A stretch of DNA of 64,000 bases from an uncultured Pseudomonadota bacterium (GTDB taxonomy: Bacteria; Myxococcota_A; UBA796; SXON01). The position numbers and the translations under genes are program-made. Where the stretch lies: assembly GCA_903885375.1 (NCBI GenBank), contig CAISIK010000141.1:1-64000 (forward strand), in the 5' to 3' direction. This document shows, piece by piece, positions 3,354 through 19,009 of this stretch. Numbering within the stretch: position 1 is the stretch's first letter; the number at the start of each line of letters is the position of its first letter. The notes beneath the pieces are model-generated. The model made no database searches, was not told the DNA's origin, and saw only the letters and a list, made by a program, of their open reading frames with translations.

Positions 3354-4604
3354 TCAGCAACAGCCGTCGCTCGATGTCTCCACCGTGCCCCAGCCGTAGG
3401 CGGGGTCGGGTGCATCGTCGAATTCGCGGTCGAAGAGCTGGACGCGCACGGTGCCGGAAACCTCGGCGGTGTCGGCGTCGAGGAGGGCAAAACCGTGGCC
3501 CTCGGCCATGCCCACCACGTTGCCGCTGCCCTGGTGGCGACCGGCGGGCACGGCGAACAACTGGCCGCCCTCCCGCTCGAGGCGCACGCGCAGGAGCTCC
3601 ACCCGGCCCGTGGCCCGCCGGAGCGGGGACCGAAGCGTGGCGTGCACCACCGGCAGGAAGGGGTTCGGGTCGCCCATGGTGCGGCGGATCACCGGGCGCA
3701 CGAACTGGAGAAAGTTCACCATGCAGGAGACGGGGTTCCCGGGGAGACCGAAGAACGGGCGCCCGGCGAGGCGGCCATAGGCCAGCGGCTTGCCGGGCTT
3801 CATCGCCACCCGCCAGAAGTCGATCGCGCCCACGACCTCCTTGACGTGGTCGAAGTCGCCGACCGACACGCCGCCGGTGGAGACGACGAGATCGGCGCGC
3901 GCGGCCGCATCCGCGAAGGCGGCGCGCAGGGCCTCGCGGTCGTCGCCCACGTTCCCGCAGTCGACGGGCTCGGCGCCGGCGGCGAGCACCAGCCCGACGA
4001 GGGCGTGGTTGTTGCTGCTGTAGATCTGGCCCGGCCCGAGGGGCAGGCCCGGCGCCACGACCTCGTCCCCGGTGGAGAGGATGGCCACCCGAGGCCGACG
4101 CGCCACCCGAACCCGCGCGAGGCCGAGGCTCGCGAGGAGGCCCACCGCGCCCGGCGTAAGGCGCGCTCCGGGCTCGAAGGCCCGGGCGCCACGTTGAACG
4201 TCGGCGCCCTCCCGGCGGATGTGCTGCCCGAGTCTTGCGCCCACGGCGATGGCCACCCGGTCTCCCTCGGAGCTGGTGTCCTCCACCATCACGATGGCGT
4301 CGGCGCCGGCGGGCACGGGAGCCCCCGTCATGATGCGCGAGGCGGTGCCCGGCTCCACGACGTGACGACCGACCGACCCGGCCGCGATCGTTTCGAGGAC
4401 GCGCAGGGTGCCCGGCAGGTCCGCGGCGCGGACCGCGAATCCATCCATCGCCGAGTTGGCCCAGGGCGGCAGGGAGAGCGGCGCGAGCACGGGTTCGGCG
4501 AGCAGGCGCCCGTAGGCCTGCGAGAGCGCGACCTCCTCACTCCCACCCGGCACGACATCGGCGAGGATTCGCGCCAGCGCCGCTTCGACGGTGAGCGTGC
4601 TCAC
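3354..4604 (-). CDS. moeA: Molybdopterin molybdenumtransferase MoeA
   Basis: 416 aa, full length. MoeA inserts molybdate into adenylylated molybdopterin in the last step of Mo-cofactor synthesis. All family landmarks are visible: PPWANSAMDGFAVR, RIMTGAPVPAGADAIVMVED, RPRVAILSTGDEVV, the molybdopterin-binding STGGVSVGDFDHVKEV, AMKPGKPLAYG and FGLPGNPVS. It starts with GTG at 4604, overlapping the mltD stop as GTGA, so it is probably translated together with an unrelated cell-wall enzyme. No other moa/mob genes are nearby. Confidence 0.97.
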   Translation of the reverse strand: MSTLTVEAALARILADVVPGGSEEVALSQAYGRLLAEPVLAPLSLPPWANSAMDGFAVRAADLPGTLRVLETIAAGSVGRHVVEPGTASRIMTGAPVPAGADAIVMVEDTSSEGDRVAIAVGARLGQHIRREGADVQRGARAFEPGARLTPGAVGLLASLGLARVRVARRPRVAILSTGDEVVAPGLPLGPGQIYSSNNHALVGLVLAAGAEPVDCGNVGDDREALRAAFADAAARADLVVSTGGVSVGDFDHVKEVVGAIDFWRVAMKPGKPLAYGRLAGRPFFGLPGNPVSCMVNFLQFVRPVIRRTMGDPNPFLPVVHATLRSPLRRATGRVELLRVRLEREGGQLFAVPAGRHQGSGNVVGMAEGHGFALLDADTAEVSGTVRVQLFDREFDDAPDPAYGWGTVETSSDGCC

Positions 4605-6397
4605 TCCTTGATCTTCAGCTTCTGGCCGGGGTAGATCGTGCTTCCCCGGATGCCGTTCCAGCTCTTGATCTGCGCCACGGTGCAGTCGTAACGCTCGGCG
4701 ATGGTGCCGAGGGTGTCGCCGCGCTTCACGGTGTAGCTGGTGGAGCGGGGGGCGGCGGGCTCGGCCTTCGCGGACTTCTTGCTTTCGCTCGCCGGTACCG
4801 CCACCGTGCCGACCTTCAGCGTTTGGCCGACGAGAATCTTGTCGCTCTTGAGCCCGTTGAGCGACTTGAGCTCGCTCACGCTCAGCTTGTACTTGCCCGC
4901 CACGCTGGAGAGGGTTTCACCCGACGCGACCTTGTGGGTGCGGGCGCGCGTGGTGGAGGTGGCCTTCTCGGCGGCGGGCTCCGTGCTCTTCGACGCGCTC
5001 GCCGGCGCGCTCGCCTCGGCGGCGCCCGACTCGGTCGGCGCCATCGACACAAGCGACGAGCTGCCGGGCCGCGCGGGCACCACCAGCTCCTGCCCCACCT
5101 TGAGCTTGCTCTTCTTGGTGAGGTGGTTGAGGCGCGCGATCTCCTCGGATTCCACGCCGTACTTCTTCGCGATGGCGGCGAGGGTTTCCTTGCGCTTGAC
5201 CACGTGGCGCGCCAACGTGATCCGCTCCTCGGGGGGCACCTTCGCAAACTCCACCTTGAAGGAGTCGACCTTGTTGGGAGGCAGGTTCACCCGCCAGTTG
5301 GGCACATCTGGCGGGAGCGCCCATCGACGCAGCCCCGGATTGAGCTCGAGCACCTGCTCGTCGCCCAGGCCGGCGGAGCGCGCGATCACATCCACGCCGG
5401 TGCCCCCCGGCACCTCGACGGTGACCTGTTCCAGCGGGTCCTGGTACTTCACCCCGACAAAGCCGTACCGTTCGGGGTGCTTGCCGATGATCGCCGCTGC
5501 GATGAGCTTGGGCACGTAGTTCTGGGTTTCGGTGTGGAGCGCGTTGCGCTCCACGAGCGTCCAGAAGTCGGTCGTGCCGTGTCGACGACACTCCTTGCCC
5601 ACCCGGCCTTCACCACCGTTGTAGCTGGCCCAGGCCAGCCACCAGTCGCCCTCGAACATCTTGTTCAAGTAGGCGAGGTAGGTGAGGGCGGCGGCGGTGG
5701 CGCGCATCGGGTCGCGGCGCTCATCAGCCCACCAATCCACCCGCAGACCGTACTGCCGCGCGGTGGCCGGCATGAACTGCCAGAGGCCGGCGGCGGAGGC
5801 ATAGCTCGTGGCGGAGGTGGTGAAGCCGCTCTCGATCATCGAGAGGTAGACGAGGTCCCGCGGGAGGCCGCGCCGTTCGAGCTCGGCGTGCATCATCGGC
5901 AGGTAGCGCGTGCTCCGCATCAGGTAGCGCGAGTAGTACTTGCGGCCGCGCCCGAGGAAGTAGGTCATCCACTTCTGCACCATCGTGTTGGTCACGATGG
6001 GGATGTCGAACTCTTCGGGGTTCACCTTGTCGAGTTGGAGCGGGTCGATCGACGTGGCGGTGAGGGGGGCGAGGTAGTACTCGAGCGGCAGGTCGGCGCC
6101 GATGGCACCCGTGTAGCCGAGCTCCGCGAGACGCTCGGCGGCGAGCTCCTCCGAGCTGGCCGAGGCGATCGCCCCGGCCGCATCGCTGCCCTCGATCTGT
6201 TCCCAAAGGCTGCCCTCTTCGACCTCGGCGGCCGGCTCATCGACATCGGGAGCCGCGAGCGCATCCGAGGGCGTGAGCATCGGCCGATCGCCCGCGTGTG
6301 CGCTGAACGGCGAGCCGAACAGCATCAGGAGGAAGGCGCCCGAGAGGAGGGTGGGCGAATGGGCCGGCCGGGGAGGCCGAATCGGGGATGTGGGCAT
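4601..6397 (-). CDS. mltD: MltD-type lytic transglycosylase with three LysM domains
   Basis: 598 aa from ATG 6397. An N-terminal signal or anchor (LLSGAFLLMLFGSPFSAHA) is followed by an acidic region, an SLT/MltD catalytic domain (about 165-300) with catalytic Glu189 in YLSMIESGF, AAGLWQFMPATARQYGL and WASYNGGEGRV, then three LysM modules (about 397-440, 488-533, 552-598; HVVKRKETLAAIA, HKVASGETLSSVA, YTVKRGDTLGTIA). It cleaves peptidoglycan glycan strands by forming 1,6-anhydroMurNAc in the periplasm. E. coli MltD has two LysM domains, so three is slightly longer. It is divergent from the regulator-like gene at 6428, with only 30 bp between the starts. Confidence 0.95.
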   Translation of the reverse strand: MPTSPIRPPRPAHSPTLLSGAFLLMLFGSPFSAHAGDRPMLTPSDALAAPDVDEPAAEVEEGSLWEQIEGSDAAGAIASASSEELAAERLAELGYTGAIGADLPLEYYLAPLTATSIDPLQLDKVNPEEFDIPIVTNTMVQKWMTYFLGRGRKYYSRYLMRSTRYLPMMHAELERRGLPRDLVYLSMIESGFTTSATSYASAAGLWQFMPATARQYGLRVDWWADERRDPMRATAAALTYLAYLNKMFEGDWWLAWASYNGGEGRVGKECRRHGTTDFWTLVERNALHTETQNYVPKLIAAAIIGKHPERYGFVGVKYQDPLEQVTVEVPGGTGVDVIARSAGLGDEQVLELNPGLRRWALPPDVPNWRVNLPPNKVDSFKVEFAKVPPEERITLARHVVKRKETLAAIAKKYGVESEEIARLNHLTKKSKLKVGQELVVPARPGSSSLVSMAPTESGAAEASAPASASKSTEPAAEKATSTTRARTHKVASGETLSSVAGKYKLSVSELKSLNGLKSDKILVGQTLKVGTVAVPASESKKSAKAEPAAPRSTSYTVKRGDTLGTIAERYDCTVAQIKSWNGIRGSTIYPGQKLKIKE

Positions 6398-6427
6398 GAC
6401 GGAGGGGCATTCAGGATAACCGGTCGT

Positions 6428-7615
6428 GTGATCGTCTTCGCGACCGACCGTGAAAGTTCTCGTGATCGTTGGTTGCCGGTGCTCGCTGGCGGCGGATCGG
6501 CCATCCTCGTGGTCCGCGGTTGGGCGGAGCTGGTGGCGGAGGTAGCGAACCCCCGGGTGCGGATCGCGGTCATCGATCCGGCCCTGCCCGGGCTCCTTCC
6601 GGAGCTGCTGCTCAAGCTGGTCGAGTCCTTTCCCCATGCGCCTCTCCTCCGTTCCCTGGATGAACCCCTCGGGGCCATCCCTTCCCTCCCAGTGCGGGCG
6701 GTGCAGATCAACGGGCTGGTCCGGCGCCGGGGAAAGGGCGGCGCCGCCGAGGAGCTGCAAAGGCGCCTCCCGCACAGCGGGCTCGGTCCGGACGCCGCGG
6801 TGATCATGGCGCGGGCGGCGGCCGATCGCGGCACGCTGGTGCTCGTCGGCCCACGCGGCACGGGCAAGGAGCTCCACGCCCGCCTGCTGCACCGCATGTC
6901 GGGCGCCACGGGCCCGTTCGCAGTCCTCGCGGCCGACGCGGTCTGGCAGGCCACCGACCCGGTGGGCACGCTGTTTGTCGACGGGGGCCACATCCGGCCC
7001 GACCTCGCGGAGGTGGTGGTGTCGGCCACCGACGCCGGGTGGCGGGTGATCGTCGGCTCGCGGGCCCCGGTGGATGTGCCCATGGCCAGCACGCTGCAGC
7101 TCACCGGGCTGAGCCAGCGGCCCGACGCCATTGTCCCCCTCGCGCGGCACTTCGCGGAGAGCTACGCCCGCGCGCTCGGTCTCCCCCGCCGGCGCTACGA
7201 CCGGCGGCTCCTCGCCATGATGCAGGCGTGGAGCTGGCCGCAGAACGACCGTGAGCTCGACCGTTTCGTGCAGCAGGCCGTGGCCGCCTCCACGGAGCCC
7301 GTGCTCCGCCTGGAGCGACTCCCCCCCGAGCTGCGTGCCCGGCTCGACCCGGCGGAGGCCGCGCCCACGGTGAACCTCGAGGGCTTCGAGGAGCTCGTAG
7401 CGGAGCGGCTCGCCGCCGTGGTGCGCGGCTGGCATGCGGGGGGGGCCACCGACCTCCACGGGTTGGTGATCGACGCAGCGGAGCGGGCGCTCCTCCGCCT
7501 CGTGCTGGCACGAACGAAAGGCAACCGGAAGGCCGCCGCCCAGCTCCTGGGGCTCGCCCGCAACACCTTGCAGGCGCACCTGCAGCGGCTCGGGGTCACC
7601 GCAGGCGGCGAATGA
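6428..7615 (+). CDS. Degenerate sigma-54 activator-like protein with Fis HTH
   Basis: 395 aa from GTG 6428 (AGGAT nearby upstream). Residues 1-75 look like a receiver domain. Residues 135-290 resemble a sigma-54 AAA+ domain: Walker A GPRGTGKELHARLLHR and a Walker-B-like GTLFVDGGHI. The roughly 60 residues that normally carry the GAFTGA loop and sensor elements are absent, and the Walker-B glutamate is missing. A Fis-type helix-turn-helix follows (350-390, GNRKAAAQLLGLARNTLQAHL). It therefore probably binds DNA but is unlikely to remodel sigma-54 holoenzyme. Its 30 bp divergence from mltD makes mltD a natural candidate target. The true start could lie slightly elsewhere. Confidence 0.78.
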   Translation: MIVFATDRESSRDRWLPVLAGGGSAILVVRGWAELVAEVANPRVRIAVIDPALPGLLPELLLKLVESFPHAPLLRSLDEPLGAIPSLPVRAVQINGLVRRRGKGGAAEELQRRLPHSGLGPDAAVIMARAAADRGTLVLVGPRGTGKELHARLLHRMSGATGPFAVLAADAVWQATDPVGTLFVDGGHIRPDLAEVVVSATDAGWRVIVGSRAPVDVPMASTLQLTGLSQRPDAIVPLARHFAESYARALGLPRRRYDRRLLAMMQAWSWPQNDRELDRFVQQAVAASTEPVLRLERLPPELRARLDPAEAAPTVNLEGFEELVAERLAAVVRGWHAGGATDLHGLVIDAAERALLRLVLARTKGNRKAAAQLLGLARNTLQAHLQRLGVTAGGE

Positions 7616-8141
7616 CGCTCCGCGGGTCGGGAGCCACCCAGATGGCGCCCACCACCGCCCATCCGGCCACCCCGGTGGCGCGCACCTCGTCGATGTTCTC
7701 CAGCCCGATGCCGCCGATGGCGACGACCGGGCGTGCGGAGGCGGCGACGGCCTCCGCCAGCATGGGGATGCTGCGCGGCGACCAGGGGGTGTCCTTGGTG
7801 CCCGTCGCGAAGACGGGGCCGAAGCCGATGTAGAGGGCCTCGCGTTCGGCGCGCACCTGCTCCAGCGTGTGCGTGCTGCGGCCGTGGGGGCCCTGGGCGG
7901 CGCCATCGGTGTCGCCGAGGTGGGCGCAGAGCCCGAGCTCGGCGGCGAGCTCGGCGTCATCGTTCACGACGAGCACGAGGGGGAGGGGCCGACAGCGCTC
8001 GGCCAGCGCGCGGACAGCCGAACGCGGCCAGCCCTTGCAGCGGAGCTGCACGACCGCCACGCCCTCGTCGGCGAGGAGCCTCACTTGCCGCTCCGGATCG
8101 CCCCGCGCGGGGTCGGTCATGCCGTAGAGGCCGGCGATCAC
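7596..8141 (-). CDS. thiE: Thiamine phosphate synthase family protein
   Basis: 181 aa, a little shorter than the usual 200-220. ThiE joins HMP-PP and thiazole phosphate. Seen: GLYGMTDPARG, the pyrophosphate-binding VVQLRCKGWP, VLVVNDDAELAAELG with CAHLGDTD, YIGFGPVFATGTKD and the terminal VVAIGGIGLENI / GWAVVGAIW phosphate loop. The GTG start at 8141 overlaps the pabB stop as GTGA. The 3' end overlaps the convergent regulator gene by 20 bp. A TenI-like or other ThiE paralogue cannot be excluded. The thiO-like gene at 11191 is nearby but on the other strand. Confidence 0.85.
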   Translation of the reverse strand: MIAGLYGMTDPARGDPERQVRLLADEGVAVVQLRCKGWPRSAVRALAERCRPLPLVLVVNDDAELAAELGLCAHLGDTDGAAQGPHGRSTHTLEQVRAEREALYIGFGPVFATGTKDTPWSPRSIPMLAEAVAASARPVVAIGGIGLENIDEVRATGVAGWAVVGAIWVAPDPRSVIRRLR

Positions 8142-9352: not shown

Positions 9353-11170
9353 GTGAAGCTGCTGATCGTCGACGATGACCTGAACTTCGGCCGCATCCTC
9401 GCCACGGTGCTGGAGGCGGAGGGGCATGTCGTCCGCCACGCCGAGGGCCCCTCCGGCGTCGGCACCCTGCTCGTCGTATTCGATCCGGATGTGGTGCTCA
9501 TCAGCGTGGATGCCACGTCGCCGGCGAGCATGTCCTTCCTCGAAGGGTTCCGCGGCCTCCCGGGCGGTCACCGCGCCGCGGCCGTGGCGATCGCCGCGTC
9601 GGCCGACGATCGCATCCGCCAGGCCTGCGCGGCCAGCAACACCGACCACCTGCTCGTGCGCCCGTTCAGCGTGTTGGAGCTCGCCGTGCTCGTCCGCGGG
9701 CTCCGTCCCGTTGTTTCGGGGATGTCCACGGAGGCCTCGGGGGAGGAGCTCAACCTCGAGAACACCTCCAAGCTGATGCGCCTGTGGGCGCGCGGCGCAA
9801 ACGGCGTGCTCAACTGTCAGGACGAGTCGGGCGACGAGCTGGTGATCCTCGCCAATGGCGGGCCGGTGGACCACGCGGTGCTGCCCGCCTTGCGCCGGAT
9901 GCTGCATGCCGGCGCGCTGGACTTCCAGCCCTGCGATGTGGACGGTGACGGGGATCCGGCCGCGATGGCCGCGCTCCTGTGGGCCGAGGCTTGCGCTTCC
10001 GCGCCCCCGCTGAAGACCCGCCCTTCCCGGTCCACCGTGGTCGTGCCCTCGCGGCTGAGCGAGGTGGCGGCGCGGCTGCCGCTCCCGAGCGGTCTCGGGC
10101 TCATCCTGTCGTCGCTGCAGGGCCCCACGGGCCTCGGCCGCATTGCGGATCAGTACGCCGTGCCGGCCGAGGCGCTCGCCGAGGGCATGCCGGGCCTCGC
10201 CGCGCTCGGCCTGCTCACCCTCCAGAACGCTCCCGACATGCCGGTGGCGGTCACGCGGCTCCAGCCGGCCGCGCCCCCGCCAACCTTCGAGGTGCAGCGG
10301 CCGCGTGCGGCGGCGGCCCCCGTTCCCGTTCGTCCGCCGCACCCGGGGGCCGGTCCGCGCTCGGTGGATCGGTCGGCCGCCGAGCGCCCGTGGGCCGATC
10401 GGATGTCGTCGGTGTCGCCGCCCTCGATGCCTCCGCGCGACCTGCCCCCGCCGGGCGCAGCCCGCGCCCCGTTGCCCCGGCCGCCGCTCCCGGCGCTTCG
10501 CCCCGCCGGCGGCCCGCAGGCCCTCCCCCCCACGGACAGCGCCGCGCTGATTCGCCGGCTGCGCCGCGAGGTCGACATGGCGCGCACGAATGATGCCTGG
10601 GTGGTGCTCGGCGTGCCCCACGATGCTGATCAGGCGATGGTCGATCGGGCGGGCGAGCGCATGGTGGCCCGCTACTCCGACCTCGTGTCCAAGGAAACGG
10701 GCGAGGCCGGCGACCTCGCGCAGGCCATGCTTGATGCCGTTCGGCAGGCCATCTCCTCCTTGCGGTCGGACGATGACCTTCAGCGCGAGGATGAGCCGGG
10801 AGAGGATGCCTTCCGGGCTGGCCTGCGGGCCATGACCGGCGGCGATTGGGCGCTGGCCGACCGGTGTTTCCTCGCCGCCCGGGATCGCAACCTCGACAGC
10901 GTTCGTAACATTGCCCACGCGGGCTGGGCGCGGGTGCACAATCCCACCCGACCGGTCAAGGAGCGCACGGCGGAGGGGCTGGAGCTCCTCCTCCTCGCCG
11001 AGCAGCTCGAGCCGGGCTTCGCCGACGGCCAGTACTTCCTCGCCACGGTGCTTCATCGCAGCGGCGATGAGGATGGCGCCCTTCGTCGGATCCGCCGGGC
11101 GCTGAAGGCCGACCCCAGCCACGTGGCCGCCTCTGCGCTGAACCGCAAGCTCCGGCGGCCGCCGGTCTGA
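9353..11170 (+). CDS. Pseudo-receiver/DUF4388/J-like/TPR protein
   Basis: 605 aa from GTG 9353. Residues 1-120 form a CheY-like fold that keeps the N-terminal acidic patch (LLIVDDDLNFG). The phospho-acceptor position reads DVVLIS instead of D, and the usual KPF lysine is Arg (VRPF), so phosphorylation is unlikely. A DUF4388-like segment follows (about 140-220, ANGVLNCQDESGDELVIL). After a Pro-rich linker comes a J-domain-like stretch (DAWVVLGVPHDADQAMVDRA) without a clear HPD, then TPR-like helices to the end. Such proteins occur in gliding and predatory deltaproteobacteria; the role here is unknown. A TATAAT at 9329-9334 lies just upstream without a recognisable -35. Confidence 0.78.
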   Translation: MKLLIVDDDLNFGRILATVLEAEGHVVRHAEGPSGVGTLLVVFDPDVVLISVDATSPASMSFLEGFRGLPGGHRAAAVAIAASADDRIRQACAASNTDHLLVRPFSVLELAVLVRGLRPVVSGMSTEASGEELNLENTSKLMRLWARGANGVLNCQDESGDELVILANGGPVDHAVLPALRRMLHAGALDFQPCDVDGDGDPAAMAALLWAEACASAPPLKTRPSRSTVVVPSRLSEVAARLPLPSGLGLILSSLQGPTGLGRIADQYAVPAEALAEGMPGLAALGLLTLQNAPDMPVAVTRLQPAAPPPTFEVQRPRAAAAPVPVRPPHPGAGPRSVDRSAAERPWADRMSSVSPPSMPPRDLPPPGAARAPLPRPPLPALRPAGGPQALPPTDSAALIRRLRREVDMARTNDAWVVLGVPHDADQAMVDRAGERMVARYSDLVSKETGEAGDLAQAMLDAVRQAISSLRSDDDLQREDEPGEDAFRAGLRAMTGGDWALADRCFLAARDRNLDSVRNIAHAGWARVHNPTRPVKERTAEGLELLLLAEQLEPGFADGQYFLATVLHRSGDEDGALRRIRRALKADPSHVAASALNRKLRRPPV

Positions 11171-11190
11171 GCGGCGCGTTAGGCGCGCGG

Positions 11191-12201
11191 ATGCGTGCGG
11201 TCATCGTTGGCGGCGGCCTGGTGGGGTGTGCGGTCGCGCTGGAGTTGGCGCGGCGCGGCGTGGCGGCCACGGTGCTCGAACGGGCGGTCCCCGGCGCGGA
11301 AGCCTCCAGCGCCGCGGCGGGCATCCTCGCGCCGCGCGTGGAGGCGCACGGGGATGCTTCGGCGCGGGCGCTCGGGCTGGAGAGCCTCGCGCTCTACGAG
11401 GGCTGGGTCGCCTCGCTGGGCGCCGACGTCGGCCTCGTACGCTCGGGCGTGGTGGTCGTGTCCGGCGCGAGCCCCGACCGCTCCGCCCTGAGCCTGGAGG
11501 GCGCCCCGCTCGATCGGCTGGTGCCGGGGCTCGCGGCGCGCCAGGCCTGGTACCTGCCCGACGAGGGGCGGCTCGACACCCGGCGGCTGGTCGGGGCGGT
11601 GCATGCCGCGGCGGCCGCGGCGGGCGCGACCTTCCGCACAGGGGTGGAGGTCGTGGCCCTCGCGGCGGGGCAGGTGGAGCTGGCCGGCGGCGAGCGGATG
11701 GAGGGCACCGTGGTGGTGTGTGCCGGCGCCTGGACCCCGCGGGTGGCCGGGATGGGGGCGCTGCCCGTCCGGCCGGTGCGCGGGCAGCTCGTTGCGCTGG
11801 GTGGGGCGCCCGCGTTCTCCCCGGTCGTCTTCGGGCCGGGCGGCTACGTCGTGCCGCGGGCCGATGAGCTGGTGGTGGGCTCCACGATGGAGGAGGTGGG
11901 GTTCACCCGGGGGGTCACCGCCGCGGGAATGCAGGAGGTGCTTCGGTCGGCCGTGGCGCTCCTGCCCGAGGTGGGCGGCCGCGAGGTGCTGCGCCACTGG
12001 TCGAGCTTCCGCCCAGGCTCGCCCGACGGCCAGCCCCTCGTGGGGCGCACGGCCAGCGGCTGGGTGGCGTCGGGCCACTTCCGCAACGGCATCCTGCTGG
12101 CGCCGCTCACGGCGCGCCGCCTCGTTTCGGCCATGCTGGACGACGCGGCCCTGCCGTCGGCGTGGGCGCCGGAGCGGTTCGGCGTCGCCTCCCGCCCGTA
12201 G
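11191..12201 (+). CDS. thiO: FAD-dependent glycine oxidase-like protein (ThiO family)
   Basis: 336 aa. A DAO-family flavoenzyme; ThiO oxidises glycine to the imine used for the thiazole of thiamine. The Rossmann FAD-binding motif opens the protein (VIVGGGLVGCAVALELARRG), followed by LERAVPGAEASSAAAGILAP, LPDEGRLDTRRLVGA, VVCAGAWTP, RPVRGQLVAL, VPRADELVVGSTME and the C-terminal RPGSPDGQPLVG / GHFRNGILLAP. The last motif and the overall pattern match ThiO better than D-amino-acid dehydrogenases. It starts 20 bp after the TPR gene on the same strand. Confidence 0.88.
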   Translation: MRAVIVGGGLVGCAVALELARRGVAATVLERAVPGAEASSAAAGILAPRVEAHGDASARALGLESLALYEGWVASLGADVGLVRSGVVVVSGASPDRSALSLEGAPLDRLVPGLAARQAWYLPDEGRLDTRRLVGAVHAAAAAAGATFRTGVEVVALAAGQVELAGGERMEGTVVVCAGAWTPRVAGMGALPVRPVRGQLVALGGAPAFSPVVFGPGGYVVPRADELVVGSTMEEVGFTRGVTAAGMQEVLRSAVALLPEVGGREVLRHWSSFRPGSPDGQPLVGRTASGWVASGHFRNGILLAPLTARRLVSAMLDDAALPSAWAPERFGVASRP

Positions 12202-12442
12202 ACCGCGTCCCGCTCGAAACGGCGACTTCGCCGATCTCGACCGGTATCTTGGGAGGTCGAGCTCGATATCGGCTTTGGGCACCTCGCGCGCGTGGTCCGG
12301 GTACGGCACGGGGACGGCCGCACGTTTCTTCTGGCCCGCCGGTCGGGCTGCGCGCGTGGCCCGCTTGGGATGGGGATTGGGGGGGGGCATCCTGGTCAGC
12401 GGGGGCCCCTCCCAGAAGGTACTGCTCGCGCGGCCAGAGCCC
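12202..12442. other. Intergenic region between thiO and the M56 gene
   Basis: A 241 bp region between two convergent genes. I see no credible gene, tRNA or clear terminator hairpin with a T tract. It has long G and C runs near 12379-12388 and 12411-12418. A basic reading frame on the minus strand is open here but continues deep into the antisense of thiO and shows weaker third-position GC bias than real genes. Confidence 0.5.
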
Positions 12443-13927
12443 TCAGCGGAGGAGGCTCGGATCGTCGAGCAGCATGGCGGCGGCGAGCACCTGCGCCACG
12501 TAGTCGTTCAGGTGCCCGGCGTCGGCCAGGGCCAGCGCGTCGCGGGTGCCGCCGGCCGCAATCGCGATGTCCACCGCGCGCTCTCCCTGGTTGTACGCCG
12601 CGAGTGAGAGCGCCCAGTCGCCGTAGCGCTCGCGGTTCTGGCGGAGGAGCGCGATGGCGGCGGTGGTCTCGCGGCCGAGGTCGAGGCGCTCGTCCCGAGC
12701 GGGGGACACCTCCAACCCGTAGGCGCGCGCGGTGCTCCCGATGAACATCCAGTAGCCGGCGCCACGTTGCCCGGGGGGCACGGTGGCCGGAAGGCTGGAC
12801 TCCTCGCGGTTGCGGTAGCCGGACTCGACGAAGGGCACAGCCGCCAACGCGAGCGGCAGCCCGGCCGCGCGCAGCTGCGCCTCCACGTACGCCCGAGCGC
12901 CGGCGTCCGACGTCAGGCTCCGGTCCGCCCAGCGGCGGCCCCCCTCGGTGGCCACGAGCTGGTCGAGGGCGCGGGCCACGCCGGGGTGGGCGGCGGTGGG
13001 GAAGTCCTGGAGGAGGGGAAGCGTGGCCTCCCTGAAGTCGCGGGTGGCCACGCGGTGGTCCGCCAGCAGGTCGCTGCCGGCCCAGCCGGCGGGCGCGGCG
13101 AGCAGCACGAAGGCGAGCAGAACGAAGGGGGCGGCCCGGGACGGTGCGGGGGGCTTGAGCAGCATGGTGAGTCGCCGGGGCAGGAACGCCGCCATGCCGC
13201 TGCCGAGGGGCAGCGGAGGGGCGGCGCGGGTGGAGAGGGAGAAGAGGGCCGCGGCGTAGGCGGCGCGCGGCTCGCCGCGGCGAACGAGCGCCGCGTCCAC
13301 CGCCAGCTCCTCCGCCTCGGTGAACGGCCGACGGAGGAGCAGCGCGGCTGGCGCGACCAGGCCGAGCGCCCAGATGAACCACGCCACTTGCGGGTCGTGA
13401 TGCCGGTGGTGTTGAAGCTCGTGGCGCACGGCCAGGGCGGCCAGACCGCGGTCCATCGCCGTGTCCGGATCCAGCACCACAATGGGCCGCCCGAGCCACA
13501 CCGCGAAGGGGGTGCGGGCTGCGGGCGCCAACCACAGCTCAACGCCGCGGATGCGGCGGATCCGGCGCGCTCCCCGCAACGTGCGGGCCAAGCCCGCCAA
13601 CGCGAGCGCGGCCGGGATTGCAGAGAGCGCCACCAACGCGGCCGCCGGCGGCAGAAGCCAGCGTGCGGGCACATCGGCAGGCGCCGCGGCGCTCACCGAG
13701 AGCGCGAGGGGCGCTTTCTCGCGGTCCGACGGTGCGTACACCTGGGCGGCCGGCGGGAGCGCCGGCATCGCCGCGGGGCGCGGGGCAGCGAGCATGGCGA
13801 GCGGGATCGCGAGGAGCAGGAGGCGTTGCGCGGGTGCGGCCCGGAGCGGCTCGATCCGCACCGCGGCCCAGGAAGCCAGCGCCACCACTGCGAGCGGCCC
13901 GTTCAGGCCCAGCCAGAACGAGATCAG
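12443..13927 (-). CDS. M56 (BlaR1/MecR1-type) membrane protease fused to a lytic-transglycosylase domain
   Basis: About 494 aa. The N-terminal half is a BlaR1-like M56 metallopeptidase with spans near residues 8-24, 33-48, 90-113, 181-198 and 266-284, the zinc motif HELQH (169-173) and a third-ligand region EAEELAVDAAL. The C-terminal half (about 340-490), predicted outside the membrane, is an SLT/MltD domain: VPFVESGYRN with Glu368 at the catalytic position, GAGYWMFIGSTARAYGL, LDLGRETTAAIALL and WALSLAAYNQGERAV. BlaR1 normally carries a penicillin-binding sensor there. The gene follows a BlaI-type repressor in one operon. The start is unclear: a CTG at 13927 overlaps the repressor stop as CTGA; GTG at 13888 is the alternative. 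Confidence 0.86.
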   Translation of the reverse strand: MISFWLGLNGPLAVVALASWAAVRIEPLRAAPAQRLLLLAIPLAMLAAPRPAAMPALPPAAQVYAPSDREKAPLALSVSAAAPADVPARWLLPPAAALVALSAIPAALALAGLARTLRGARRIRRIRGVELWLAPAARTPFAVWLGRPIVVLDPDTAMDRGLAALAVRHELQHHRHHDPQVAWFIWALGLVAPAALLLRRPFTEAEELAVDAALVRRGEPRAAYAAALFSLSTRAAPPLPLGSGMAAFLPRRLTMLLKPPAPSRAAPFVLLAFVLLAAPAGWAGSDLLADHRVATRDFREATLPLLQDFPTAAHPGVARALDQLVATEGGRRWADRSLTSDAGARAYVEAQLRAAGLPLALAAVPFVESGYRNREESSLPATVPPGQRGAGYWMFIGSTARAYGLEVSPARDERLDLGRETTAAIALLRQNRERYGDWALSLAAYNQGERAVDIAIAAGGTRDALALADAGHLNDYVAQVLAAAMLLDDPSLLR

Positions 13928-14292
13928 GGCGCCGCCTTGAGCAGGGCTTCGACTGCGGCCCGCTCCTCGGAGGTCAGCGACTCCGTGGCGGCGAGCGTAC
14001 GCACGAGCGCGGCAGCGTTTCCGGAGAAGACGCGCTGCACGACATCCGCCACCGCCGTGGCCTCGTAGGCTGCCTTCGACACGACCGGGAGGACGACGAG
14101 CCGGCGACCGTCCCGCAGGGATTTGGCGAAACCCTTGTCGTCGAGAATCTTGAGCAGGGTGGCCACGGTGGTGTAGGCGCGGGGAGGGGCCGCCAATCCA
14201 GCCTGCACCTCGGCCACGGTGCTGGCGCCGCGCTGCCAGAGGACGTGCATCAGTTCGAGCTCGGCGGCGGTGAGGAGGCGCGGGTCGCTCAT
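13924..14292 (-). CDS. BlaI/MecI-family transcriptional repressor
   Basis: 122 aa, the normal BlaI size. A winged helix occupies residues 1-75 (LTAAELELMHVLWQRGASTVAEV, TTVATLLKILDDKGF, DGRRLVVLPVVSKAAYEA) and a C-terminal dimerisation region follows (ADVVQRVFSGNAAALV). The family represses its own operon and is cleaved or released when the partner M56 protease is triggered. The ATG at 14292 lies downstream of a strong promoter overlapped by two dyads (14303-14342), as expected for autoregulation. The M56-transglycosylase fusion gene follows without a gap. Confidence 0.93.
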   Translation of the reverse strand: MSDPRLLTAAELELMHVLWQRGASTVAEVQAGLAAPPRAYTTVATLLKILDDKGFAKSLRDGRRLVVLPVVSKAAYEATAVADVVQRVFSGNAAALVRTLAATESLTSEERAAVEALLKAAP

Positions 14293-14298
14293 GAAGGC

Positions 14299-14327
14299 AA
14301 TTTACTAAGGACATAGTAGAGTGTCAA
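14299..14327 (-). promoter_or_regulatory. Sigma-70-type promoter of the blaI-like operon
   Basis: On the minus strand a perfect TTGACA (14327-14322), a 17 bp spacer and TAAATT (14304-14299, 4 of 6 matches to TATAAT) lie just upstream of the repressor ATG at 14292. The region is AT-rich against a very GC-rich background. Transcription would begin very close to or at the start codon region, so the mRNA may be nearly leaderless. Confidence 0.65.
14303..14318. promoter_or_regulatory. BlaI-type operator, proximal dyad
   Basis: The sequence TACTA-AGGACA-TAGTA is an inverted repeat resembling known BlaI/MecI operators (TACTACATATGTAGTA type). It covers the spacer and the edge of the -10 of the promoter at 14299-14327, so a bound repressor dimer would block RNA polymerase. 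Confidence 0.65.
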
Positions 14328-14342
14328 CTAAAGTTTTAGTTG
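14325..14342. promoter_or_regulatory. BlaI-type operator, distal dyad
   Basis: A perfect inverted repeat CAACTAAA-GT-TTTAGTTG overlaps the -35. It contains ACTA/TAGT half-sites like the proximal dyad. The two dyad centres are 23 bp apart, about two helical turns, which allows cooperative binding of two dimers. Confidence 0.65.
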
Positions 14343-14361
14343 TCGAACATTCTGGCGGAGA

Positions 14362-14683
14362 CTACCGTGTATGGTCGTGCGTTTTGGCGGCGGTGGCGTC
14401 CCCGCCTGCAAGGACGTCCTCCATCACGAACGTCCCGCCGCGAGCATGGTCGCCGTCGTCGTTTCCTGCCGCGAGCTCCGGGCGCCCGTCGCCGTTCCAT
14501 TCCAGAAGGATTGCGTCCTGAACGTCGGTGGACCCTACGCCGGACTGCCGTCCGCCCGTGAACACCCACGCGCCTCCGCTGTGGTCGCCCAATCCGCCGG
14601 AGGCCACGACGCCGGCGTCGACATCGACCTCCCGATATCCGCGGTCGGGCTCGGAGAAGTCGCCTGGCCGCGCGGCATTGCCC
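14362..14683 (-). pseudogene. Decayed FG-GAP repeat protein fragment
   Basis: Between the blaI promoter and the Mrp gene, the minus strand encodes readable FG-GAP-type sequence without a start: REVDVDAGVVASGGLGDHSG, GGAWVFTGG, then LLEWNGDGRPELAAGNDDGD and ARGGTFVMED. These match the calcium-binding loops of the intact FG-GAP protein at 41889-44330 (DLDGDGADELVVGADGDD, AGVAWVFSYA). The frame has no plausible start codon or signal peptide, and upstream it runs out of frame into the Mrp gene. I read it as the remnant of a larger gene. Confidence 0.55.
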
Positions 14684-15790
14684 CTAGACCAGCTTCGACA
14701 CCCGCTCGGCGATGGCCATGAACACCTCGTCGCCATCGAGCACCGCGGGGCGACCGGCATCCCCGCCGGCCCGGTACCGCTCGCGGAGCGGCACCTGCCC
14801 GAGCAGCGGCACGCCATACTCCGTGGCCATGCGGGCCCCGCCGCCCTCGCCGAAGGGGTAGGCGCGGGCGCCGCCCGGCATCTCGAACCAGGACATGTTC
14901 TCGACCACGCCGAGCACCGGCACATCGAGCTTCTTGAACATCTCCACGCCGCGAACGGCGTCGAGGAGGGCCACGGCCTGCGGGGTGGTCACCACGATGC
15001 CGCCGGTGATCGGCACGCCCTGGATCATCGTGAGCTGCACATCTCCCGTGCCGGGTGGGAGGTCGACGATGAGCCAGTCGGTGTCGCTCCAGTCCACCTC
15101 CTTGAAGAACTGGTTCACCACGCCCATCACCATCGGTCCGCGCCAGATCACCGGCTCCTTCTCATCCACGAGGAGGCCGATGCTCATGCACTTCACGCCA
15201 TGGGCGGGGATGGGCAGGATCTGCTTCTTCTCGTTGCCGAACGGGCGGGTGTGCACGTTCATCATCAGCGGCAGGCTGGGGCCGTAGATGTCGGCGTCGA
15301 GCAGGCCCACCTTGTGTCCGAGACGGGCGAGGCCCACGGCGAGGTTGGTGGCCACGGTGCTCTTGCCCACGCCCCCCTTGCCGGACATCACCGCGATGAT
15401 GCGCTTGACGCCCTCGGGCATCGTCTTGGTGATGGGGCCGCCGTGCGGCTGCATGCCCGGCCCGCTCATGCCCTTGATCGGGTCCTTGGCGGGGGCCGCG
15501 GCGTGCTTGTGCTGGTGGTCGTGGCCGGCGGAGGGGGCGGTCAGGCCCTCCACGCGCAGGGTGCACACGACCTCGCCCTTCCAGCCGCGCTCCACCAGGT
15601 TGCGCACGAGCGCCTCCTTCATGCGCTGCCGGTCGTCGGGGCTGTGCTCCTTCTTCACGGCGAGCACGAAACGCAGCGTGTCGCCGTCGATCTTCGCGTC
15701 CTGCACGAGGCCCGCGAGCCAGACGCTCCGGCCGGAGAGGGGGTCACGAACGCGGGTGGCGGCGGGTTCGATCAGGCTCAGTGGATCCAT
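14684..15790 (-). CDS. apbC: Mrp/ApbC-family P-loop ATPase, iron-sulfur carrier type
   Basis: 368 aa. It has an N-terminal DUF59/MIP18-like domain (1-90), a His-rich linker (HDHQHKHAAA) and an NBP35/Mrp ATPase domain. Seen: the deviant Walker A MSGKGGVGKSTVATNLA, LLDADIYGPSLPLM, IWRGPMVMG, WLIVDLPPGTGDVQLT and VVTTPQ. Mrp proteins carry and deliver Fe-S clusters. The C-terminal ENMSWFEMPGG segment lacks the CxxC that in many homologues bridges a cluster between two subunits. It is divergent from the lipoprotein gene at 15843. Confidence 0.92.
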   Translation of the reverse strand: MDPLSLIEPAATRVRDPLSGRSVWLAGLVQDAKIDGDTLRFVLAVKKEHSPDDRQRMKEALVRNLVERGWKGEVVCTLRVEGLTAPSAGHDHQHKHAAAPAKDPIKGMSGPGMQPHGGPITKTMPEGVKRIIAVMSGKGGVGKSTVATNLAVGLARLGHKVGLLDADIYGPSLPLMMNVHTRPFGNEKKQILPIPAHGVKCMSIGLLVDEKEPVIWRGPMVMGVVNQFFKEVDWSDTDWLIVDLPPGTGDVQLTMIQGVPITGGIVVTTPQAVALLDAVRGVEMFKKLDVPVLGVVENMSWFEMPGGARAYPFGEGGGARMATEYGVPLLGQVPLRERYRAGGDAGRPAVLDGDEVFMAIAERVSKLV

Positions 15791-15842
15791 GCGGCGCGGG
15801 TAGCCCCTCGCGGGGGCGCGAGCCAGCGGGCTACGCTACCCA

Positions 15843-16940
15843 ATGCTGTTGTTTCTCCTCGGATGTGATGCCGGTGCCGACGATACCGACGGGTCCGTCG
15901 GGGAGACCGGCCGCGCCGACACCGCAGAGGGCGACACCGGCGATACGGGCGACTCCGGTCCCACCGACATCCCCGCCGGCCCGGACTGTGATGCGTCGTC
16001 GCTACCGATGGACGAAGCCTACAACGTGGTCGTTGGCCACGTGGTGGAGGGCTCGGCCACCGAGGCGGAGCTGGCCGACCTGCAGCGGCTGGTGGAAGAA
16101 TGGGCGCCGTCGGTCTCCGGCCCGTGGAGCCACGACGTACGGGGGCCCTACGTGGTGGCGGAAGACCTGTCCGTTTCGGGCGGCGGCGATTCCCTCGCGG
16201 CGGCGTCGGTGGCCGACGTGATCCAGCGCGACGACGGCAGCTTCCTCATTTTCTTCGTGGACGGTGATCTGACCGCCATGCTCGCGCAAGCCCGCGCGGG
16301 CGTGCCCTTCCGCACCGGACTGCGCGGCCTCGGTGGGCTGGCCGCCGCGACCTCCCCCGACGGTCGCTCGTGGACGCCGGCCGAGCTGACGGTGGATGTG
16401 GCATTCCCGGCCTACGCGGTGGACCCCGAGGTGGTCCGGGCGGCAGATGGCGGCTTCGTCCTCTACTTCCTCGGTGTTCCTGCCGAGGAGCTGTGCGCCG
16501 ACACCCCCGACCCCTTCGTGGTGCCGGGCGCGCATCGGTTGTATCGAAGTGTGTCATCGGATGGCTTGCACTGGGCGGAGGCCCGGGAGGTGTGGGCCAA
16601 CCCCGACGGCGGGACGGACCCGGCCGTGTGGTGTATCAGTGATACACGTTGTCTCGGATGGTTCTGGGGCGGGATCGGCTCGGTGGATGGTGGTCTCACC
16701 TGGCAGGAGGAGGAGACGCTGGCCTTCGACAGCACCCCGCAGCTCCCCGACGTGGTGCAGGTGGCCGAGGGATGGCGCATGTTCCTGCTCGGCGCCGAGG
16801 GGGTTTCCACCGCGTGGAGCGCGGATGGTTATGCCTTCACGGAGGAAGGGCCGCTCGGTCTTCCTGCGTCGTCTCCTTCGGCGGTGATGGCGGGCGGCAA
16901 GGTGCGGCTATACCTGTCGGGACCTCCTCCCCAGCCCTGA
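15843..16940 (+). CDS. Probable lipoprotein with propeller-like repeats
   Basis: 365 aa, family not recognised. The N-terminus is MLLFLLGCDAG: a hydrophobic stretch of only seven residues before a lipobox-like Cys, then a Thr/Asp/Gly linker (DTAEGDTGDTGDSG). The body has repeated motifs such as LAAATSPDGRSWTPAEL, LYRSVSSDGLHWAEAREVW and GGIGSVDGGLTWQEEE, which resemble the Asp-box or five-bladed-propeller strands of glycosidase-like or sialidase-like proteins. It is probably a surface or periplasmic protein. Its stop overlaps the next start (TGATG), so it is coupled to the DUF5916 gene. Confidence 0.72.
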   Translation: MLLFLLGCDAGADDTDGSVGETGRADTAEGDTGDTGDSGPTDIPAGPDCDASSLPMDEAYNVVVGHVVEGSATEAELADLQRLVEEWAPSVSGPWSHDVRGPYVVAEDLSVSGGGDSLAAASVADVIQRDDGSFLIFFVDGDLTAMLAQARAGVPFRTGLRGLGGLAAATSPDGRSWTPAELTVDVAFPAYAVDPEVVRAADGGFVLYFLGVPAEELCADTPDPFVVPGAHRLYRSVSSDGLHWAEAREVWANPDGGTDPAVWCISDTRCLGWFWGGIGSVDGGLTWQEEETLAFDSTPQLPDVVQVAEGWRMFLLGAEGVSTAWSADGYAFTEEGPLGLPASSPSAVMAGGKVRLYLSGPPPQP

Positions 16941-19009
16941 TGCTCCTGCTCCCATTCGTCAACGACGCGCTCCTCACCCTCGATGGAAAGGCCGACGAGC
17001 CGGGGTGGGCGCAAGCCGTCGAGCTCCCAGACGGCGCGCCGTTCTGGCCCAACGACACCGTGGCCACGGTGGGTTCGCTCCGCGCGCGGGTGCTCACCGA
17101 CGCCCGGAACCTGTACGTGCACTTCGAGGTTGCCGACCCGGAGCCCGAGCTCGTGCGGGCGGGGTTGGGCCGTCGCGACTCGCGGTATGCCGACGACTAC
17201 GTGGGGCTTGAGATCGACCCCGGCGTGGGCGGCCGGCGGAGCTTCCGGTTCGTGAGCAACCCCATGGGCGTGCAGACCGATGGGGTGCACCTCCTCGGCG
17301 AGGCCACCTACGAGGAGGACAACTCCTGGGACGGCTTGTGGTCGTCGGTGGGGCGCCGAACGTCCGCGGGGTGGGAGGTCGAGATGGCCATCCCATGGAG
17401 CACGCTGCAAGTGTCCCGGGAGGCGGGCAAGCTCGGCGTGGCGGTGATCCGGCAGGTTGCGCGCAAGTCCCAGACCTACTCCTGGCCCAAACGGGAGCCG
17501 AGCACGGACGGGTTGCTGTCGCAGGCCACCGCGCAGGGCCCGTCCGGGCTCCCCGCTCGAGTGGGCCTCGAGCTCCTCCCCGAGCTCACCGGCGGCTGGA
17601 GCGACCCGCCGGCCGACACGGGGCGCTTCGGCCTGTTCGGGGTCTCGCCGGGGCTCACGTTGCGCTACGCCCCCAGCGGAAACTTCTCCGCCACGCTCAC
17701 GGGCAATCCGGACTTTTCACAGATCGAGTCTGACTCCTCCCGCATCGAGGTGAACCAGCGATACGCGCAGAGCTACGAGGAGAAGCGTGCCTTCTTCCTC
17801 GATGGCCAGGAGTCCTTCGCCCATCCCTTCCGCGGGATGTATTACACCCGCTCGGTGAATGCGCCGCTCTACGGAGCGAGGCTCGACGGCAAGGCGGGCG
17901 GACTGTCGGTCTCCGGCATGCACGCCCTCGACATGGCGCCGCCCCCATCGGTGAACGAGGGCGGAGGGTGGACGGAAGCGCAGCTCGCCGGGCACGCCGC
18001 GCTCGCCACCGTGGCCCGCACCCAGTACGCCACCTCCAACGGGAGCTCGGTTGGGCTCCTGCTTTCGGATCGGACGGTGGTCGACACGAACCTCTCCAAC
18101 CGGGTGGCGGGGGTGGATGGCAGCGTGCGGGTGGGCCGGAACTTCTCGGTGGATGGCTCACTGGTGGGTTCGGCCACGACGTTCACCGAGGGTGAGGCGG
18201 AACGTCTCGCGCCGGCCGGCTCGCTTTCCGGCTCCTGGGAGAGCGACACCGTCTACGTGGCGGCCCGGGGCGTGGCGATCGGCGAGGAGTTCCGGCAGGA
18301 GAATGGCTTCGTGACGCAGTCCGACGTGGCAGGCGGTGCGGCCGAGGCGCACTACCAGTTCCACCCCGGCGGCATCCTCCCCATGCTGTCGGTGGAGCCC
18401 ACCGATGGGTGGGCCTTCTTCGATCTGGCGGGTGTTCCCCGCGAGCGGGCCTGGGATCCGAGCGTCTGGGCACAGTTCGAGGATGGAACCTTCCTCAAGC
18501 TGGACGGGCGCGTGGCCGGTGAGGCCTTCGCCGGGGAGTGGGTGGACTACGCGCGCGCCGAGCTCTACGCCAACACCTCGGTGGGTGAGTGGTTGAGGTT
18601 GGAGGCCGAGGTGAACGCGGGTACCTCGCCGTTCTACGACCCCGCGCACCCCCGGGCGGGCGTGCTTCAGGAGGGCGAGCTCGGCCTGCAACTCCAGCCG
18701 ACCTCCTGGCTGCTGCTGGAGGTTTCGCCCGGGGTGGCGCACATGACGGAGCTCACCGGCGAGGAGATGTTTCTCGCCTGGACCGGCCGGGCGCGCCTGG
18801 AAGCCTTCGTGAGCCGGCGGGCGTGGGTGCGCCTCGTGGCCGATACCCAGGGTCAGGCCGACGCCCTCGACTCCTGGCGGCTGGAGCCGCTGTTCGCCTA
18901 CGAGTGGACGCCCGGTCGCGCGGTGTACCTCGGCGGGAGCTACGGGCAGGAGGAGGAGGTGGCGAGCTGGGGGGTGTTCGCCAAGGCAAGCTGGCGATTC
19001 CTGCTCTGA
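16940..19009 (+). CDS. DUF5916-type outer-membrane protein with CBM9-like N-terminus
   Basis: 689 aa from ATG 16940, which overlaps the preceding stop. The N-terminal 190 residues match the carbohydrate-binding-like domain found in DUF5916 proteins (LDGKADEPGWAQAVEL, ARVLTDARNLYVHFEV, WEVEMAIPWSTLQ). The rest is strand-rich with NPDFSQIESDSSRIEVNQRY, FFLDGQESFAHP and a C-terminal Phe/Leu-ended strand (KASWRFLL), consistent with a beta-barrel. No standard signal peptide is visible before VNDALLTLDG; only MLLLLPF precedes it. Function is unknown for the family. Confidence 0.8.
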   Translation: MLLLPFVNDALLTLDGKADEPGWAQAVELPDGAPFWPNDTVATVGSLRARVLTDARNLYVHFEVADPEPELVRAGLGRRDSRYADDYVGLEIDPGVGGRRSFRFVSNPMGVQTDGVHLLGEATYEEDNSWDGLWSSVGRRTSAGWEVEMAIPWSTLQVSREAGKLGVAVIRQVARKSQTYSWPKREPSTDGLLSQATAQGPSGLPARVGLELLPELTGGWSDPPADTGRFGLFGVSPGLTLRYAPSGNFSATLTGNPDFSQIESDSSRIEVNQRYAQSYEEKRAFFLDGQESFAHPFRGMYYTRSVNAPLYGARLDGKAGGLSVSGMHALDMAPPPSVNEGGGWTEAQLAGHAALATVARTQYATSNGSSVGLLLSDRTVVDTNLSNRVAGVDGSVRVGRNFSVDGSLVGSATTFTEGEAERLAPAGSLSGSWESDTVYVAARGVAIGEEFRQENGFVTQSDVAGGAAEAHYQFHPGGILPMLSVEPTDGWAFFDLAGVPRERAWDPSVWAQFEDGTFLKLDGRVAGEAFAGEWVDYARAELYANTSVGEWLRLEAEVNAGTSPFYDPAHPRAGVLQEGELGLQLQPTSWLLLEVSPGVAHMTELTGEEMFLAWTGRARLEAFVSRRAWVRLVADTQGQADALDSWRLEPLFAYEWTPGRAVYLGGSYGQEEEVASWGVFAKASWRFLL

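Follow-up and report, generated by a model that had tools for sequence, protein, structure and literature searches.

A BlaI-type repressor gene and a gene that joins an M56 zinc protease to an MltD-like lytic transglycosylase (LT) lie together in a 64,000-nucleotide stretch of DNA from an uncultured Pseudomonadota bacterium (contig CAISIK010000141.1 of assembly GCA_903885375.1; the whole stretch is hereafter called the window). We consider, with about even confidence, that the two genes form a self-contained, self-repressed BlaI/BlaR1-type module in which the LT is both the sensor and the output of one closed loop. The original prediction had described a blaI gene overlapping an M56-SLT fusion, and this was confirmed: the TTG start of the fusion lies within TTGA, giving a 4-nt overlap with the blaI stop, and both the M56 and the SLT domain score above the Pfam curated cut-offs in a single frame. 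The genes, domains and motifs are:

13924-14292, minus strand: BlaI-type repressor gene, 122 aa (PF03965, E 2.4e-25, 89.6 bits, cut-off 22.6)
12443-13927, minus strand: m56-slt fusion gene, 494 aa, TTG start
Fusion residues 126-237: M56 domain (PF05569, E 5.3e-10, 39.4 bits, cut-off 31)
Fusion residues 351-461: SLT domain (PF01464, E 1.3e-12, 47.8 bits, cut-off 21.3)
13157-13579, minus strand: M56 zinc protease region, residues 117-257
13409-13423, minus strand: HELQH (HEXXH), residues 169-173
13295-13309, minus strand: ELAVD (EXXXD), residues 207-211
12446-13045, minus strand: MltD-like LT region, residues 295-494
12824-12826, minus strand: catalytic-type Glu368 (VESGY) of the LT region
12584-12598, minus strand: AYNQG, residues 444-448

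The HELQH, EXXXD, VESGY and AYNQG motifs were all found as claimed, and the LT domain also carries a GxW.FI motif, as MltD-type LTs do. The sole NCBIfam match of the fusion was murein transglycosylase D (53.8 bits against an equivalog cut-off of 508), and P. aeruginosa MltD (8rhe, E 3.5e-11) was its only PDB sequence match at E <= 1. No LysM match was found with Pfam (listed up to E 10). A penicillin-binding (SXXK) sensor domain was equally absent from the Pfam matches up to E 10, which comprise SLT and M56 only, the HMMER filters dropping most weak matches.

An AlphaFold model of the fusion was built from a 55-row alignment (mean predicted local distance difference test score (pLDDT) 87.2; predicted template modelling score (pTM) 0.71). 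The model predicts four transmembrane (TM) helices and an extracytoplasmic C-terminal domain, the sidedness of which we infer. The following positions rest on the model together with hydropathy:

13853-13924, minus strand: TM1, predicted, residues 2-25
13787-13849, minus strand: TM2, predicted, residues 27-47
13667-13786, minus strand: extracytoplasmic loop equivalent to BlaR1 EL1, residues 48-87, with a PPAAQVYAP motif
13580-13666, minus strand: TM3, predicted, residues 88-116
13073-13132, minus strand: TM4, predicted, residues 266-285

The LT domain forms a block with a pLDDT of 89-98 (residues 301-494). Among the best 50 of 71 Foldseek matches listed, nine reached E <= 0.001: six were chains of P. 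aeruginosa MltD and three were chains of S. aureus BlaR1. MltD gave the top matches and BlaR1 matched with an E of 2.5e-4. The C-terminal half is SLT-like both by sequence and by predicted fold, as had been claimed. The EL1-like loop is disordered in the model (residues 51-86, pLDDT < 50). By eye and without statistics, a [FW]xPxx[KQ][VI]W-like motif can be recognised in this loop in the window's clade and many Bdellovibrionota rows, and is altered in Myxococcaceae. Shedding of the C-terminal domain by signal peptidase has been reported for BlaR1 (PMC9834060, available text). A corresponding site after TM4 that would shed the LT was considered for the fusion; position 281 is Ala, Gly or Ser in 55/55 proteins, but a clean A-x-A is not common to the Myxococcaceae rows, and no such site is claimed.

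The fusion recurs widely. Using the M56 half as query, we retrieved 69 named loci from one species-level genome collection, and SLT is encoded in the same frame as M56 in 59 of them. The original prediction had named a stop or frameshift between the two halves, or homologues that are always separate genes, as grounds for refuting it; the window holds neither interruption, and the same single frame recurs in those 59. An accidental or assembly-made joining of two ordinary genes might be suspected from the fragmented source assembly (224 contigs). It is refuted by conservation, the 59 loci including strains titled Myxococcus, Corallococcus and Archangium as well as a Sulfidibacter titled complete genome, and we give it next to no probability. 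A search of 93 genomes, the source genome included, gave some match in 77, of which 64 match in the LT part only, and a full-length match in 13. The 12 relatives of the window's locus overlap with the named set: 11 of them apparently recur among its 59 fusion loci (as L066-L074, L076 and L122).

Conservation of both active sites was assessed in an alignment of 55 proteins, those of the window and of 54 of the 59 fusions; proteins shorter than 470 aa were left out (L079, L090, L113, L116, L123). H169, E170, H173, E207, D211, E368 and S369 are invariant (55/55), and Y445 and N446 are kept in 54/55. Judged from these residues, both enzymes look live. The LT half is the better conserved one: its identity to the window in the 12 relatives is 42-65% against 32-53% for the M56 half, and its mean column entropy over the 55 rows is 1.59 bits against 1.83 for the protease.

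The linkage to the repressor is similarly constant. A BlaI gene lies upstream of the fusion in 12/12 relatives (in L037 it is cut by the contig end) and in 54 of the 59 named fusion loci, the remaining five being cut by contig ends. The distance from the end of BlaI to the start of the M56 profile is below 100 nt in 48 of these 54 and 102-156 nt in the other six. The window's BlaI matches MecI (1okr/1sd6) with a phmmer E of 0.0019, and residue 102 of MecI (Phe) aligns with its Leu100; Leu occupies this position in 55/55 BlaI rows. In S. aureus, cleavage of BlaI falls between Asn101 and Phe102 (PMC9834060, available text). A peptidoglycan dipeptide, on the other hand, binds BlaI/MecI and destabilises the complex with DNA (PMC3305447, available text). 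This would fit a system that relies less on BlaI cleavage than on a peptidoglycan fragment in the cytoplasm to free the repressor; the LT would produce that fragment as the wall turns over, with the M56 protease tuning the turnover. However, HEXXH and EXXXD are invariant and the Leu at the cleavage-aligned position is universal among the aligned rows, so that proteolysis looks selected for; we consider this alternative very unlikely.

Upstream of blaI, the promoter is overlaid by two dyads:

14326-14341, minus strand: operator O1, predicted, AACTAAAACTTTAGTT, overlapping the -35 element
14303-14318, minus strand: operator O2, predicted, TACTATGTCCTTAGTA, between -35 and -10, overlapping the -10 element
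14299-14327, minus strand: sigma-70-like promoter TTGACA-17-TAAATT, 10/12 matches, the sole one in 12200-14700 (shuffles, mean 0.0)

The starts of O1 and O2 are 23 bp apart. This putative tandem operator over a promoter is a new finding; the original prediction had no operators. We compared the window and 51 further loci, out of 60 in total, with dinucleotide shuffles. The dropped loci had no BlaI (L090, L106, L113, L116, L123) or too little upstream DNA (L069, L092, L093). Allowing up to 2 mismatches over both sites in a 22- or 23-bp register, a tandem operator was present in 51/52 fusion loci and in 0/1040 shuffles; at 3 mismatches, 1/1040 shuffles had a pair. Unknown bases (N, in L079 only) had been read as A, and a recount of the actual loci with N as a mismatch again gave 51/52.

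The tandem operator is also nearly unique in the genomes that carry it. In the source assembly (6.0 Mb, ~90% complete) O1 and O2 are the only exact matches to WACKAWNNNNTTMGTW, and a scan of this assembly with 3 mismatches allowed found no tandem operator except at the module's own promoter. Across the 13 genomes scanned for WACKAWNNNNTTMGTW, 12 had a match, some with further single sites, and one (G063) had none. With 3 mismatches in the 23-bp register, 11 of 12 genomes had a single occurrence of the pair and Sulfidibacter had two (control 0/12). An exact-pair scan covered 46 genomes: 44 that hold loci from the set of 59 fusions, and the two that hold L121 and L125, loci described below. The exact pair occurred in 40/46 (reversed-pattern control 0/46), at one place in 39/40 and at two places in Sulfidibacter corallicola. 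In 36/40 it lies just upstream of the fusion's blaI, and it is the genome's only exact pair in 35 of these 36; the four genomes in which it is not so placed are those of L090 and L106, where blaI is cut off, and of L121 and L125. Exact WACTAANNNNTTAGTW matches were confined to the two sites of the pair in five genomes of 9-14 Mb, four of them with myxobacterial titles and the fifth titled Comamonas but grouping with Myxococcus. Single sites mean little, because each of these five genomes also has 1-4 matches to the reversed-pattern control. Elsewhere, single 16-mer sites such as L160, which falls within an RNase E/G gene, were in many genomes about as frequent as the control among the matches listed, and the count was therefore restricted to tandem pairs.

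The neighbourhood of the module likewise offers no common target. Besides blaI and the fusion, no open reading frame match above 90 bits was common to more than two of 13 loci (the window and the 12 relatives, two of them on 3.5-kb contigs), and the neighbours shared by two loci lie more than 2 kb away. A divergent or downstream target gene was therefore rejected, with none shared by more than 2/13 loci and none obvious by eye near the M. xanthus locus L104. No beta-lactamase or resistant penicillin-binding protein (PBP) was a shared neighbour among the 13 loci, a result that leaves room for a target with other sites.

The only regulon that can be seen for the repressor is its own operon and, with no regulated product other than the fusion in sight, the LT is probably both sensor and output of a closed loop. 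The original prediction had the module report wall damage, by implication to another set of genes, and this found no support in that form: exact operators stand at one place in 39/40 genomes and at the fusion's blaI in 36/40. The same operator results would also suit an LT that is output only, with the M56 part sensing membrane state, a periplasmic protein or spontaneous turnover, and the fusion tying the dose of a dangerous hydrolase to a private repressor. The sole visible repressor target in the source assembly is the fusion's promoter, as in most genomes scanned, and conservation is highest in the LT half and its catalytic residues. Against this stands the position of the LT, which is that of the sensor in BlaR1 (PMC9834060, available text), and the close M56 relatives L121 and L125 carry a PBP transpeptidase there, as would fit a sensor slot. 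We regard an LT serving as output only as fairly unlikely.

The comparison with BlaR1/MecR1 and BlaI/MecI of S. aureus and B. licheniformis bears directly on this sensor slot. BlaR1 has an N-out, C-out topology and a zinc site made of H201EXXH and E242XXXD; its EL1 (56-96) sits in the active site of the sensor and is expelled by beta-lactam, and the sensor is the C-terminal domain at the LT-equivalent position (PMC9834060, available text). The module resembles these systems in its M56 protease with HEXXH and EXXXD, four TM helices and a C-terminal domain after TM4, a TM2-TM3 loop of similar place and length, an adjoining BlaI-family repressor and operator-like dyads at the promoter. It differs in having an LT domain where BlaR1 has its penicillin-binding sensor; furthermore, no beta-lactamase or PBP2a gene was seen under the module's control, the regulon in sight being mainly the module itself. 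The MltD-type (family 1) LTs share with the fusion the SLT domain, a catalytic-type Glu with ESG, AYNxG, GxW.FI and the MltD fold (8rhf, 8rhe), whereas the fusion's LT is tethered behind M56, has no LysM match and, in the window as in 40/55 fusions, reads Met where the WQF motif has Gln.

Replacement of the sensor had been claimed as well. What stands of that claim is the BlaR1-type anatomy with an MltD-like LT in the sensor's place, and PBP-bearing relatives of the M56 protein (L121, L125) make such a domain swap visible in nature; a swap of LT for the penicillin-binding domain is thus plausible. As to function, LT activity is as likely to be the output as the sensor. In L121 (3762-5675) and L125 (3712-5799) a PBP transpeptidase replaces the LT (PF00905; E 6.9e-35 and 3.8e-38, respectively). 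Like the fusion, these proteins belong to the same M56 branch and have an adjoining BlaI and tandem dyads upstream; unlike it, they have the transpeptidase domain and dyads of the TACTAA or TACGAA type. In the genomes of both, an AACTAA pair precedes another blaI, followed by an LT fusion in L157 and by the contig end in L158. The L121 genome therefore also holds an LT fusion with AACTAA dyads (L157:608-2170), and it seems to house two modules side by side, each with operators of its own type.

We found no paper describing an M56-LT fusion by title or start of abstract, most subscription papers lying outside the search, which agrees with the earlier statement that no described system of this kind is known. 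The closest is a mention in passing, without function, of M23-M56 proteins in one review (PMC9662197, available text). These also join M56 to a peptidoglycan hydrolase, but theirs is an endopeptidase and not an LT, and the available text names neither a repressor nor an operator and assigns them no function. Of the 14 M. xanthus LTs tabulated in another paper, one is given as 'family unknown' and two as 'Slt/MltD/MltE' (PMC11444678, available text); the fusion may be among them, and 'M56' is absent from the main text of that paper as available. It is equally absent from the available main text of PMC12265050, on the sporulation LTs LtgA and LtgB.

Several observations weigh against a self-contained loop with a working LT. 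The Gln of the WQF motif is a defining residue of family 1 LTs. At this position, 394, Met stands in the window and 40/55 fusions and Gln in 15/55, while the standalone rows have WQF in 19/19 (by eye); LT catalysis may therefore be weakened. The aligned P1' residue of BlaI is Leu in the module and Phe in S. aureus. Docking of the EL1-like loop in the LT groove is not visible, because the loop is disordered in the monomer model. One of the 52 loci, L098, is without a recognisable tandem operator, and the exact pair was not found in 6/46 genomes scanned. The second tandem operator of Sulfidibacter, ~26 kb from the first and the only extra exact pair among the 40 genomes having one, precedes a polysaccharide deacetylase (L155:4641-5831; PF01522, E 3.2e-16); as this is plausibly a wall enzyme, the extra target also fits a module concerned with the wall. 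The scans, moreover, are blind to targets with diverged, single or differently spaced sites. Within the genus, only 1/10 congeners (G004) carries the fusion, as do 2/11 other family members (G019, G020), many of the assemblies being incomplete; so patchy a cassette suggests a job that is not housekeeping.

Met394 and the Sulfidibacter target, together with the precedent of BlaR1, whose sensor is built from an enzyme fold, would favour an LT confined to sensing, with a fold of reduced catalytic power that serves to bind glycan or muropeptides and with the real targets out of sight. But the catalytic-type Glu368 is invariant (55/55), and 39/40 genomes have no second exact tandem operator. We consider an LT acting as sensor only to be distinctly unlikely.

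The anatomy, the intact active sites, the link to BlaI and the nearly unique tandem operators can be read from sequence; sidedness, repression at these sites, cutting of BlaI, LT catalysis, the role of the loop and the wall signal are inferred. Under the closed-loop reading that we prefer, the module would work as follows. At rest, a BlaI dimer would sit on the two operators covering -35 and -10 and keep both genes low. The fusion would lie in the inner membrane with its N and C termini outside; the LT would face the periplasm and the zinc protease the cytoplasm. The trigger would be engagement of the LT with abnormal wall, for example uncrosslinked or broken glycan, or with a ligand or inhibitor in its groove; the TM2-TM3 loop and the transmembrane part may then shift, as in BlaR1. 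The protease would cut BlaI near a conserved C-terminal LVxxL site and the promoter would open. The main product of this opening would be more LT-protease, acting on the wall, until falling substrate or resynthesis of BlaI closed the loop, so that the LT would be gauge and effector at once. A cytoplasmic peptidoglycan fragment acting on BlaI could add to cleavage or replace it (PMC3305447, available text).

By record title, the fusions come from Myxococcota (Myxococcus xanthus L104, Corallococcus, Archangium, Pyxidicoccus), Bdellovibrionota, Acidobacteriota (Acanthopleuribacter, Sulfidibacter and a Holophagae metagenome-assembled genome (MAG)) and Gammaproteobacteria (Steroidobacteraceae and Lysobacteraceae MAGs). 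The phyla are as given in the titles, some of which look wrong, and the Bdellovibrionota and Gammaproteobacteria members are MAGs only. Two titles look mislabelled: the fusion of L076 (titled Klebsiella pneumoniae, a MAG) groups with uncultured rows near the window, and that of L124 (titled Comamonas sp. KCTC 72670) with Myxococcus. A plasmid origin was rejected, as the M. xanthus protein matched 22 plasmid records with none covering 80% of the protein, and the ten of the 22 that were listed cover the LT end only.

The ten unfused loci among the 69 comprise eight short M56 proteins (Paracoccaceae or other Alphaproteobacteria; one, L128, stops at a contig end) and the two with a PBP transpeptidase domain. 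Quick tree searches were run for both halves. In the M56 tree (66 rows, L128 left out) 7/8 short rows stand apart with a support of 100 and the PBP forms fall on the side of the LT form; a single origin of the LT form is possible on this tree (Shimodaira-Hasegawa-like approximate likelihood ratio test, SH-aLRT, 74). In the LT tree (56 fused and 19 standalone rows) the rows cluster strongly by kind, but three changes are required. In the 93-genome search, the highest scores among unfused relatives of the fused LT domain went to standalone SLT frames of 218-287 aa (L016, L017, L018; one with a stop in the matched stretch), which may be split or precursor forms.

Other related elements were observed. 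A standalone MltD-like SLT domain with the usual WQF kept (residues 653-830, counted stop-to-stop) lies in a long frame of the window at 4601-7963 on the minus strand, ~6.5 kb from the fusion. The source genome has a second BlaI-M56 pair (G000:C207:77171-77407; L002, L047), in which M56 is without an SLT or wall-enzyme domain and no exact operator match was found; it was not taken as part of the system. A more distant BlaI-M56 pair without an SLT match in G032 (L159:4607-6634) has two TACGAA dyads 17 bp apart before blaI. An Rfam scan of window positions 10000-17000 gave no structured-RNA matches.

Lytic transglycosylases need careful dosing, and the module bears on how cells measure wall state for that purpose. 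If the closed loop is true, gauge, switch and enzyme would be held in two overlapping genes with a private promoter, a module that record titles place in four phyla and that the genetic model M. xanthus also has. Going further, we can tentatively picture, at rather less than even confidence, that the TM2-TM3 loop moves into or out of the LT groove and that the groove in this way gates the cytoplasmic protease by which the enzyme's private repressor is destroyed, so that wall state sets enzyme dose. Together with its PBP-fused sister and the M23-M56 proteins, the fusion would then be an instance of a general design in which wall enzymes are fused to BlaR1-type proteases under a single-promoter BlaI, with penicillin sensing by BlaR1 as one specialised offshoot. 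The finding suggests that BlaR1-type signalling may extend beyond antibiotic resistance, and that new wall sensors may arise through exchange of the outside domain.

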